Shown here: positions 25,553 to 30,844 of the stretch, in pieces
How positions within the stretch are numbered: the first letter of the stretch is position 1
How the letters are laid out: every line of letters begins with the position of its first letter
Assembly: GCA_028873155.1 (NCBI GenBank)
Contig: JAGWML010000002.1
Location: 1-34,722 of the forward strand
DNA from: Acidobacteriota bacterium
GTDB taxonomy: Bacteria > Acidobacteriota > Terriglobia > Terriglobales > Acidobacteriaceae
Reading direction: 5' to 3'
Length of the DNA: 34,722 nt
Notes under the pieces: generated by a model
Told to the model about the DNA's origin: nothing
The model's input: only the letters and a program-made list of their open reading frames with translations
Database searches by the model: none
Position numbers and translations under genes: made by a program

Positions 25553-26878
25553 ATGAGGTTTAGTAAATTCGGCAAGGCCCTTCTGATGAGCGCCCTCTCG
25601 GTTGGCGGCATCCTCGGCATTACGTCTTGCGTGCAGAGCTATACGGTCGGTTATCTCTGGGTCACAGGCACAAACACGGCGCAGACCACGGGTAATGGCA
25701 TCATCAGCGGCTTTAAGATCGACCACAACACCGGCTTCTTGACACCGATCAACGGGCTTCCGATTGCATCCGGAGGCGCCAATCCGGGCCGATTCGTTCT
25801 TCTGACCGGTGGGCGCTTCATGTACGTGCTCAATCGCGGCGTTAATAAAGAGGGTGGCTCGACCTGCACCACCACCGATCCCTGCCAGAACTCGAATATC
25901 ACCGAGTTCGCCATTGGCGGCAACGGCATCCTCTCTCCGCAGGCGACTTTTTATACGCAGGGAATCAATCCGTTCCGCATTATTTCTGACCCCGGCGGGA
26001 ACTACATTTACGTCCTGGATCACGATTCGCCCTCCAGCGCCACCTGCGCACTGAGCCTCGGATCGAGCGCGACTTCCTGTGGTGACATCACGGCATTCAA
26101 AGTCGATCCGAATACGGGCCGGCTGACGCTGGTGGTCAACTCCCAGGTCACGGCCGCCAACGGCTCACCACTACCCTACTTCCCTGTTCCGGCAAACCCG
26201 ATCGATTTCGTTCTGGCTTCCGGCTACTTCCTTACGGTGAGCGGCACGCCCGGTTCCGGCGATACGGTCTTCCCGTACACCTACACGGCGAGCACCGGAC
26301 AGTTGACCGTGAACCAGAACAGCAGTCAGCCGCTGAACATCGCACAGGCAACCGCGATCGTGAGCGGCGGCGGTTACGTGTACGTTCTGGATAACGAGTC
26401 GATTACTGTGAACGGAATCACATCGTTCAGCCAGCTCATCCCCTTCTCGGTGGGCACCAATGGAGCGCTGCAGCAGCAGACCGGCGGAGCGATTCCGGAC
26501 GATCCGACATTGTCGAACCCGATCTACCTGATCTATGAGAACAAGAACAAGTGGGTCTATGTCGCCAATCAGGGCAACAACAACACGCAGACCGGCAACC
26601 CACAGAGCGGTCTGGCGGGGTACGTCATCGATCCGGCAACCCACCAGCTCAGCGAGATTCCGGGCAGTCCGTGGGGCAGCGGCGCGGGTCCGCAATGCCT
26701 TCTGGAGGATCCGTCCAACCAGTTCATGTATACGGCCAATTACAACGACTCCACGGTAACGGGTCGAGTGATTGACCAAAACTCCGGCGTGCTTAACAAC
26801 CTGCCGGGACCGGCGAATATCACGTATCCGCTGCTTGGCCCGGCGGCATGGTGTGTGGCCAGCGGCAGAACGAGCTGA
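25553..26878 (+). CDS. Beta-propeller (lactonase-like) lipoprotein, copy 1
   Basis: 441 aa; lipobox GILGITSC; repeated YVYVLD / KWVYVANQGNN / QFMYTANYNDSTV blades. Confidence 0.85.
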   Translation: MRFSKFGKALLMSALSVGGILGITSCVQSYTVGYLWVTGTNTAQTTGNGIISGFKIDHNTGFLTPINGLPIASGGANPGRFVLLTGGRFMYVLNRGVNKEGGSTCTTTDPCQNSNITEFAIGGNGILSPQATFYTQGINPFRIISDPGGNYIYVLDHDSPSSATCALSLGSSATSCGDITAFKVDPNTGRLTLVVNSQVTAANGSPLPYFPVPANPIDFVLASGYFLTVSGTPGSGDTVFPYTYTASTGQLTVNQNSSQPLNIAQATAIVSGGGYVYVLDNESITVNGITSFSQLIPFSVGTNGALQQQTGGAIPDDPTLSNPIYLIYENKNKWVYVANQGNNNTQTGNPQSGLAGYVIDPATHQLSEIPGSPWGSGAGPQCLLEDPSNQFMYTANYNDSTVTGRVIDQNSGVLNNLPGPANITYPLLGPAAWCVASGRTS

Positions 26879-26903
26879 TGCTGTATTCGTGTGCTGCGCA
26901 AAG

Positions 26904-26934
26904 GGCAGGAATGAATCACAGCCTCATTCCTGCC
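26904..26934. terminator. Hairpin downstream of beta-propeller copy 1
   Basis: GGCAGGAATGA (26904-26914) / TCATTCCTGCC (26924-26934), perfect 11-bp stem, 9-nt loop, no T-tract. Confidence 0.55.
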
Positions 26935-27060
26935 GCCAGCACCGAAGCAACCGGAGCCTTCGCAGTACGCACAGCCTGATCGCAGGCACAACCCGGAGCA
27001 TTTCGGGGCAAATTCCAGGAACAGTGATTGCGGGGTATGAATCCCGCTCGCTGATGAAAG

Positions 27061-28272
27061 ATGCGAATGAAGTTCAACAAATTGAGCCAGCTGATGCTAG
27101 CGGCCGCGTTCAGCCTCACGGCGGCGGGCCTCCTCACAGCGTGCAGCACATTGACCGCGGACTTCGTTTATGTGACCAGCGCCCTCGCAACCGGGTCGAA
27201 TCAGTACGGTCAGGTCGATGTCTTCGAGGTCAACCAGGACTCCGGCAGGATGCGAAAGATTCCCGCGTCGCCATTTCCCTCGGGCGGCCGCAATCCCGTC
27301 GCCGATGCGCCTGCCCCGGACAACGCCAGCCTGTATGTGGTGAATGAGGACGACAATTCAATTGTCCAATTCATCATCGGCAACGACGGCAAGCTCTATC
27401 CCAATTACACAACCAACACTCCCGGCGTCTTTCCTTTTGCAATCGCACCGGTCAAGGGTTATCTCTACGTCCTGGACACTTATCAGCCGCTGCCGACGTG
27501 CAATTCGGCTTCTCCATGTTCGGGCTCGGTGGCAGTGTTCCCGATTAACAAGGACGATTCTCTTGGCACAGCCATCTCCAACACCTCGAATGGCACCAGC
27601 TACTGGCCGCTGACTCTGGCGACGCGACCGAATGATGTGATTGTTCCCACAGGCATCGCCACAAGCGCGTCCGGCGCCTATGTCTACGTCACGGCTTACG
27701 ATTCCTCGGTATCTCCGACAGTCGGCTACGTTTTTGGATTCAGCGTCAACTCGGACGGTTCCCTCGCCCCGGTCAACGGCGGTACTCCATTCGCCGCAGG
27801 CACGCATCCATCCGCAGTTGCAGGCAATCCAGCCGCGAACGATCTCTACGTGACGGATATGGGACCGGGCAATATTCTGGGCTTCCAGATCAACGCAGGT
27901 ATGTTGACACCGCTGAGCGGCAGTCCATATCCCTCGGGGAATCAGCCGGTCGCCATTGTCGTGGACGGCAAAGGCAGATTTGCCTACGCCGCGAACTCGC
28001 TGGATGCCAATGTGACCGCGTACACCATCAATGCCGGCAATTTGACCCGTGTGGGTGCCTACACAACAGGCGCTCAGCCCGTCGCTCTCGGCATTGATCC
28101 TTACCTGAATCAGTATCTGTACACGGCAAACTTTCTCGGGAACACCGTGTCGGGATTCCAGATCAATTCAACGGACGGAACGCTTCTGATCGCTCAGTTT
28201 TCTCCGTTCAAGTCCAACACAAACCCAACGGCGGTGGCGGCTATTCCCCATCCCGTGCCGATTCCGAAATAG
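27061..28272 (+). CDS. Beta-propeller (lactonase-like) lipoprotein, copy 2
   Basis: 403 aa; MKFNKLSQLMLAAAFSLTAAGLLTAC lipoprotein signal; QYLYTANFLGNTVSGFQINSTDGTL blade. Start may be 27067. Confidence 0.87.
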   Translation: MRMKFNKLSQLMLAAAFSLTAAGLLTACSTLTADFVYVTSALATGSNQYGQVDVFEVNQDSGRMRKIPASPFPSGGRNPVADAPAPDNASLYVVNEDDNSIVQFIIGNDGKLYPNYTTNTPGVFPFAIAPVKGYLYVLDTYQPLPTCNSASPCSGSVAVFPINKDDSLGTAISNTSNGTSYWPLTLATRPNDVIVPTGIATSASGAYVYVTAYDSSVSPTVGYVFGFSVNSDGSLAPVNGGTPFAAGTHPSAVAGNPAANDLYVTDMGPGNILGFQINAGMLTPLSGSPYPSGNQPVAIVVDGKGRFAYAANSLDANVTAYTINAGNLTRVGAYTTGAQPVALGIDPYLNQYLYTANFLGNTVSGFQINSTDGTLLIAQFSPFKSNTNPTAVAAIPHPVPIPK

Positions 28273-28447
28273 CGCAGCGATGCGAGCCGCAATGGCGTAG
28301 GCCGGTTGCCGGTCCACATGCAGCAAAGGCCGGCGCAGCGCGAGTGAACACAGTAGCAAGACCCCATACCGGGCTTTTACACTGAATATGGGCAATTCCA
28401 ACAGACACGCCGGGCACTCCGTAGATGGCCCACAACGAAGGAAGCGC

Positions 28448-30091
28448 ATGAAGTTCAGCAAACCGAGCCAGCTTTTCCTGGTCTCTTCCCTCGGCCTTGT
28501 CGTGGCCACGTTCCTTTCCGCCTGCCAACTTGTGACGATCGACTATCTGTATCTGGCCTCGGCCGGAAGCGGCACTGGCAGCGACGGGCAGTTGCAGACT
28601 TTTGCGGTCGATTCTGAAACCGGCGCTCTGCGCACTGGACCGGCGGCAGTCTCCTCCGGCGGCGTCAATCCAGTCGCACTGGCGGTTTCGCCCAACTATC
28701 AAAATGTCTATGTTGCGAACGCTGGTAGCGATTCAGTCGTCCACTTCGCAGCCAACTACAACGGTGGACTAACCAAACAGGATGCCATCAGCACGGCTAG
28801 TTCTCCGGTTGCCCTCGCGGTGAATCAGGCAGGCACCTCTCTGTTCGTGCTTTCCGGCACGGCATCAGCGACGCTGACAGAGTACGCAATCTCATCCTCT
28901 GGCGCCATTGGCGCGGTCACCGCACAGCAAACCTTGGCTCTCCCCGGCTATACGGGCGACCCGCTCGCTCCCACGGGAATCGTCTCCCTCGCGAATAACA
29001 AGGCCGTGTACGTTACCGTGTATGACCAGGCTGCCTATAATCCGGGCGGCGCCGTCACCAGCACGGCCAATCCGGGCTGGGTCTTTGGCTTCACAGTCGG
29101 CAGCGGCGGCGCACTCGCAGCGACCCTGGGAAGCCCCTACAAGGCCGGAGTCAAGCCAAGCGGGCTCGCGGCGGACCCCACCAGCCGGTTCGTCTATGTC
29201 ACCGATTTTGCCTCGAATCAGTTGATCGGGTATGGCATCCAGTCCAGCGGGCTGCTGAACTTTCTGATTAACGGCCCATTCCGCACCGGGGCGGAGCCTT
29301 CAGGGGTGGCCATCGACCCGCGCGGCCTCTACATGTACGCCTCCAACGCGCTTGATTCATCCGTCTCTGCGTACCTGATCGACTTGAACACCGGCACACC
29401 TTCGGCGGCGATCAATCCCACCGGTTCGGCTACGAATGCCACAGATACGCAGCCCATTGCAATCGCGGTTGATCCGGCGTTAGGCCGCTTCGTCTACACG
29501 GCAAACTACCTCGGGAACTCAGTCTCCGGCTTCCAGCTCGATCCAAACGCCGGCACGCTCAAGCAGTCGCAGGCAACTCCGTATCCGGCCGACCTGCACC
29601 CGACGGCTCTGGCGATTGCCCCGCATGGCAACCACTCCATTCAGTCCGTCACGCCTTGGAACCCAGCGATCCAAAACTGGAACAAAAAGCCCAACCTCTT
29701 CGGTTGGGCTTTTTCGTGTCGTCCAGTCTGTATGCAACTTACTGGTCTCTCAGGCGGACATCCATTTCCTCAACTGCCGTTGAGCCGGCTTCTCAATCAA
29801 ATGGAGCGCCAGGACTGCCATCACGATGAGGAGGACATAGCTGATCCAAGGATCGAAGCGCGCCAGACCCAGCCGGGTCAGGAGATGCGAATCATGAATC
29901 ATGTTCCACATGTTGAAGTGGAGCAGGTAGAGACAATAGCTTGCCTCACCCACGAAGACCAGCGGCCTTGCGCCCAGAGCGTACGCCAGCGGATTGTTGC
30001 CTGCGAGTCCAAGCACAATGCAACCAAAGAGCGGCATCAGCAATCCATCGTGCAGCAGCGTGTACGGCACTCTGGGCCCGAAAGACAGTAG
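28448..30091 (+). CDS. Beta-propeller (lactonase-like) lipoprotein, copy 3, with run-on C-terminus lacking a natural stop
   Basis: MKFSKPSQLFLVSSLGLVVATFLSAC signal parallels copy 2; blades RFVYVTDFASNQLIGY, RFVYTANYLGNSVSGFQLDPNAGTL; homology to copies 1 and 2 ends near 29630, after which the ORF passes through the terminator and antisense to the acyltransferase. Confidence 0.82.
   Translation: MKFSKPSQLFLVSSLGLVVATFLSACQLVTIDYLYLASAGSGTGSDGQLQTFAVDSETGALRTGPAAVSSGGVNPVALAVSPNYQNVYVANAGSDSVVHFAANYNGGLTKQDAISTASSPVALAVNQAGTSLFVLSGTASATLTEYAISSSGAIGAVTAQQTLALPGYTGDPLAPTGIVSLANNKAVYVTVYDQAAYNPGGAVTSTANPGWVFGFTVGSGGALAATLGSPYKAGVKPSGLAADPTSRFVYVTDFASNQLIGYGIQSSGLLNFLINGPFRTGAEPSGVAIDPRGLYMYASNALDSSVSAYLIDLNTGTPSAAINPTGSATNATDTQPIAIAVDPALGRFVYTANYLGNSVSGFQLDPNAGTLKQSQATPYPADLHPTALAIAPHGNHSIQSVTPWNPAIQNWNKKPNLFGWAFSCRPVCMQLTGLSGGHPFPQLPLSRLLNQMERQDCHHDEEDIADPRIEARQTQPGQEMRIMNHVPHVEVEQVETIACLTHEDQRPCAQSVRQRIVACESKHNATKERHQQSIVQQRVRHSGPERQ
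29684..29714. terminator. Bidirectional Rho-independent terminator
   Basis: AAAAAGCCCAACC (29684-29696) TCTTC GGTTGGGCTTTTT (29702-29714): perfect 13-bp stem including A/T tracts on both sides. Confidence 0.93.
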
Positions 30092-30844
30092 CGCAAAGGC
30101 AGCGGCGAATCCAAAGACTCCCAGAATCAGCCGAAAGCGACCCGAGCGCGGGATCAGTTCGTCCAGCTCGGCCAGAAGCACGCCAAAGACAAAGCTCGCC
30201 AGATGCGGCATCGGAGTGTACTTGAGCGCCTGCAACCACGGCCCATAGCTCCAGCGATCCGGGTGAGCGATGCCATCCGGGTTGAAGACGATGTAGAGCG
30301 TTCCTGGAATCAGCCCTACCATCCACACGCCAAACATCTTCCCGAGATGCGTTCGAATCCGCTCCGGCTTCTTCCATTGCGCCATCCAGGGAAAAAGAAC
30401 GTAAAAGAACGACTCGGCAGACATCGTCCACGCGGGAGTATTCAGAAAAGTCGCAATCTCCGGAATCCAGCCCTGCAACAACAACGGCGAGAGAGTCATC
30501 CCAGTCCAGAACATGGCGTGGGTATGTGCGCTCCACTCCAGGGGAATCATGCGCCAGGCCAGCAAGAGGCTCAGGAGATAAATCGGATAGAGCCGCGTGA
30601 AGCGAGCCTTATAGAAGCGGGCTACGTCCAGTTCGCCCGCACGGGCGCGGGCGTTGTAGTTATATCCCAGTACAAAACCGGAGAGCAGAATGAAGTAGCT
30701 CACCGAAGCATAGCCGGCGTTCACGATAGGCGCGAACCACCCGAACCATTTCGGATCAGAAAAGTGAAAAAAGACAATATTGACGGCTGCGAAGCAGCGC
30801 AGACCTGTCAGGGCCTTGAGCGGGGCTGGCTTACGTTGTTCCAC
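29750..30844 (-). CDS. Acyltransferase family 3 (OafA/YrhL-like) membrane protein
   Basis: 364 aa; LKALTGLRCFAAVNIVFFHF start, SYFILLSGFVLGYNY, RFTRLYPIYLLSL, WTMSAESFFYVLFP. Confidence 0.92.
   Translation of the reverse strand: MEQRKPAPLKALTGLRCFAAVNIVFFHFSDPKWFGWFAPIVNAGYASVSYFILLSGFVLGYNYNARARAGELDVARFYKARFTRLYPIYLLSLLLAWRMIPLEWSAHTHAMFWTGMTLSPLLLQGWIPEIATFLNTPAWTMSAESFFYVLFPWMAQWKKPERIRTHLGKMFGVWMVGLIPGTLYIVFNPDGIAHPDRWSYGPWLQALKYTPMPHLASFVFGVLLAELDELIPRSGRFRLILGVFGFAAAFALLSFGPRVPYTLLHDGLLMPLFGCIVLGLAGNNPLAYALGARPLVFVGEASYCLYLLHFNMWNMIHDSHLLTRLGLARFDPWISYVLLIVMAVLALHLIEKPAQRQLRKWMSA

Follow-up and report, generated by a model that had tools for sequence, protein, structure and literature searches.

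A probable one-base stop codon loss ahead of a conserved terminator in a beta-propeller lipoprotein gene of an Acidobacteriota draft genome

Introduction

In Bacillus subtilis, brfA carries a terminator inside its open reading frame (ORF), resulting in an SsrA-tagged, rapidly degraded product, and disruption of the terminator abolishes this effect (PMC6881298). A similar stem-loop is found in Escherichia coli arfA (PMC10107115). When a non-stop ORF is translated, the mRNA upstream of it, on the same transcript, can also be degraded as a result (PMC10107115).

Here we describe a locus with a related layout in a 34,722-nt stretch of DNA (the window) from contig JAGWML010000002.1 of assembly GCA_028873155.1, an Acidobacteriota bacterium of the family Acidobacteriaceae. 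The third of three beta-propeller genes in this window (copy 3) has no stop codon before its own terminator hairpin. The initial annotation offered three options for this state: stop loss, a sequence error, or a real non-stop gene that couples protein level to rescue or termination efficiency. Comparison with same-genus genomes supports the first, by a single substitution. A sequence error has somewhat less than an even chance, whilst the real non-stop gene is not supported.

Results

The window contains tandem lactonase-fold lipoprotein genes (25553-30091) between guaA and an acyltransferase gene, an arrangement kept across the genus (Table 1). Copies 2 and 3 are in tandem in nearly all genus genomes searched, with identity between copies of only ~35-45%. 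Orthologues of copy 3 across the genus stand in tandem with a second copy (36 same-genus genomes), and the acyltransferase gene lies close downstream in most. Copy 2 is unusually divergent in this genome, with a branch dN of 0.138; the corresponding values for G081 and G085, its two closest relatives (hereafter the sisters), are 0.044 and 0.048. Most of the divergence falls at approximately residues 160-280 and at the C-terminus. It is absent from copies 1 and 3, and possibly reflects recombination or relaxed selection.

Copy 3 starts at ATG 28448, with orthologues aligning from residue 1. Its N-terminus, read directly, is a signal with an LSAC lipobox, and its protein matches the Pfam family Lactonase (PF10282) at 76.9 bits (E 2.2e-21), over the curated cut-off of 21.7. 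From this ATG the frame is open for 547 aa. As first annotated, it passes through the hairpin and continues antisense into the acyltransferase gene, closing only at 30091.

Table 1. Features of the beta-propeller locus (positions in the window).
Feature	Position	Strand	Basis or remark
Propeller copy 1, normal stop	25553..26878	+	
Propeller copy 2, normal stop	27061..28272	+	
Propeller copy 3, Lactonase-fold (PF10282) lipoprotein	28448..29656	+	403 codons to ancestral end; Pfam Lactonase
TGG codon in place of orthologue stop	29657..29659	+	Codon 404; stop in 71/71 readable orthologues
Run-on frame, coding sequence not conserved	29660..30091	+	Closes at TAG 30089-30091; 29750-30091 antisense to acyltransferase gene
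13-bp hairpin with A- and T-tracts, most likely a bidirectional intrinsic terminator between convergent genes	29684..29714	both	Fold energy, locus conservation
Convergent acyltransferase gene (PF01757), intact	29750..30844	-	Pfam; end agrees with both sisters

The 3' end of copy 3 was compared with its orthologues in 71 other genomes of the genus, omitting G076, where the locus is cut by a contig end, and G068, which gave a paralogous hit. A stop is present at the homologous codon in all 71 (37 TAA, 33 TAG and 1 TGA), directly after a motif resembling PHGNHxxQSVTP or, more loosely, PHGNHxxQxVTP (for example, PHGNHSIQSVTP). In this genome SVTP is followed by TGG, which a single transition would turn into TAG or TGA; TAA would take two. 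The copy 3 protein is collinear with its orthologues up to this codon, and the DNA alignment sets TGG over TAA or TAG. The sisters, at 81% (G081) and 80% (G085) protein identity, stop here with TAA and TAG, respectively. A homologous stop in the relatives, a sense codon in this genome and a collinear frame up to that codon together point to a stop loss. Because every orthologue stops at this position and TGG is a single transition from TAG or TGA, it is very probable that a single substitution, private to this genome, removed the copy 3 stop, whether as a true mutation or through an error of the consensus.

This comparison moves the expected end of copy 3, previously put near 29630, to 29659. 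The orthologue alignment is collinear to codon 403, which led us to reject both a frameshift and a deletion near the 3' end. The earlier statement that a single-base shift cannot repair the frame is correct for insertions and deletions but not for substitutions, one of which suffices to explain the present state.

Branch dN for copy 3 was 0.045 in this genome, 0.050 in G081 and 0.088 in G085, and comparison of this genome with G081 gave a dN of 0.095 and a pairwise dN/dS of 0.063. Judged by these values, copy 3 is under the same constraint here as in the sisters. Since its branch shows no raised protein divergence, the change to TGG is either very recent or an error. Pseudogene decay was rejected because copy 3 has no internal lesion and its branch dN is not raised. 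There was likewise no sign of a chimeric contig at this point, with copy 3 and the acyltransferase gene similarly divergent from the sisters.

The genome is a draft metagenome assembly, fragmented into 323 contigs and 87% complete, and the two nearest genomes are also metagenome assemblies, with stated coverage of only 2.6 and 5.0. TGG could thus stem from a wrong base or consensus call in assembly, or from the assembler picking the allele of a minority strain, with the organism's gene retaining a normal stop. That the change is private, involves one base and sits in an otherwise constrained gene fits this reading, to which we give somewhat less than an even chance. However, neither frameshifts nor premature stops were found in the other conserved genes of the window, all of which end within ~15 residues of the sister ends. 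Likewise, no lesions were found in 24 comparable ORFs (~200 kb against partial sister sequence), a set that includes several shadow frames and is too small for an error rate. The contig therefore looks clean, though substitution errors are mostly invisible to such checks. On balance, a real base is slightly more likely than an error.

The perfect 13-bp hairpin that the initial annotation placed at 29684-29714 is exact. It consists of AAAAAGCCCAACC-TCTTC-GGTTGGGCTTTTT, with a 5-nt loop, an A-tract before it and a T-tract after it, and folds at -21.7 kcal/mol on the plus strand (z -5.0) and -21.9 kcal/mol on the minus strand (z -5.2) relative to shuffled sequence. The terminator scanner did not list it because the T-run was counted within the stem. 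The hairpin is flanked by tracts and separates two convergent genes, and so most likely terminates transcription arriving from either side. At 65 of 72 loci a stem of ≥9 pairs was found no more than 110 nt from the stop, a median of 22 nt downstream, and the stem letters differ between this genome and G085 with pairing retained. The hairpin is an ordinary conserved terminator, common to copy 3 and the convergent acyltransferase gene.

In this genome no backup stop occurs in the 24 nt that separate the lost stop from the hairpin, and the ORF therefore runs through the terminator. Such scarcity of stops is typical of the locus, because among the 65 loci with a strong hairpin, 47 have no in-frame stop between the normal stop and the hairpin end and 30 have no stop of any frame. 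In two other genomes, G008 (L028, 1501-2772) and G029 (L010, 1501-2769), the first 441 and 504 nt past the true stop, respectively, are free of in-frame backup stops, which leaves both as exposed to a non-stop outcome.

The absence of stops from all plus frames near the end of copy 3, also reported initially, extends further than was then described: no TAA, TAG or TGA starts within 29482-29780, the flanking stop triplets starting at 29481 and 29781. At 300 nt, this gap exceeds all others on the window's plus strand (736 gaps in total). Its length alone is unremarkable in this DNA, since the minus strand of the window has stop-free gaps of 331 and 313 nt. For this reason, and given the 30 loci similarly devoid of stop triplets, stop-free length was rejected as a sign of selection.

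If the TGG is real, termination at the U-tract near 29714 would leave most copy 3 transcripts with no stop codon. Ribosomes reaching this stopless 3' end would be expected to stall, and the protein would be tagged and released by tmRNA-SmpB, whilst a minority of read-through transcripts would yield the 547-aa run-on protein. Both tmRNA (182.5 bits, tag ANDNLALAA) and SmpB (192.1 bits) were found in the genome. ArfA and the RqcH family domain NFACT_N were not found in it and no ArfB was seen, the RF-1 domain family matching only two genes, both of RF1/RF2 length (357 and 373 aa); these absences are weak because the draft is 87% complete. The predicted need of a non-stop mRNA for rescue, by tmRNA or an Arf-type factor, would thus follow from a real base as far as tmRNA and SmpB are concerned. 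The matches L002-L005 to the tmRNA family were sub-threshold and ~76 nt long, the length of a tRNA, and are probably tRNA genes.

Should the propeller trio be one transcript, expression of the upstream copies could also be lowered. It is highly improbable that the stop loss is fixed in the species and that the non-stop transcript holds copy 3 low, perhaps together with the upstream propeller genes via trans-translation-coupled mRNA decay.

Formation of the terminator hairpin could be hindered by a ribosome that follows closely on the polymerase. With the frame open to 30091, such transcription-translation coupling could block the hairpin and give the full 547-aa protein. We consider it very unlikely that this run-on protein is abundant through terminator read-through and functional. 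The 144 added residues match no Pfam family, and the extension is antisense to a conserved acyltransferase gene with 86-87% identity to the sisters across its full 364 aa. Moreover, the corresponding frame in the sisters is not open as it is here, closing 177 nt (G081) and 81 nt (G085) after the stop.

A hairpin inside the ORF with no stop ahead of it is the geometry of arfA and brfA (PMC10107115, PMC6881298), and copy 3 might by analogy be a selected non-stop gene whose protein level is set by ribosome rescue or terminator efficiency. None of the 71 orthologues lacks a stop, the closest two included, and in each the stop precedes the hairpin; the arrangement is not conserved, nor is the run-on frame. 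Copy 3 encodes a lipoprotein of the lactonase fold that has no connection with rescue, and this protein shows no sign of altered selection. Selection for a non-stop state is thus extremely improbable. The proposal that copy 3 couples its protein level to rescue finds no support, as the stop loss is shared by no relative and the gene does not encode a rescue factor.

Discussion

The probable loss of the copy 3 stop by one substitution draws attention to a property of the locus itself. Where a conserved terminator lies ~22 nt past the stop with no backup stop in between, one substitution leads to a non-stop transcript and not to an extended protein. A single stop loss would expose 47 of 65 loci of this gene family to this outcome, which is mainly a caution. 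Should the change be genuine, this species would offer a natural test of cellular tolerance to a permanent tmRNA substrate.

Copy 3 resembles other PF10282 seven-bladed beta-propeller lipoproteins in scoring over the family cut-off and belonging to a tandem set conserved in the genus, and differs from them only by its lost stop. In the usual stop-loss (nonstop extension) mutation the protein is extended; by contrast, the next stop of copy 3 is beyond an intrinsic terminator and the transcript may lack any stop. In this it is like E. coli arfA and B. subtilis brfA, since its terminator is inside the ORF, before the first in-frame stop, and its transcript is a predicted tmRNA substrate. Unlike in arfA and brfA, where the arrangement regulates a ribosome rescue factor, the gene concerned here encodes a beta-propeller lipoprotein, and the arrangement is private to one genome whose relatives all stop before the hairpin.
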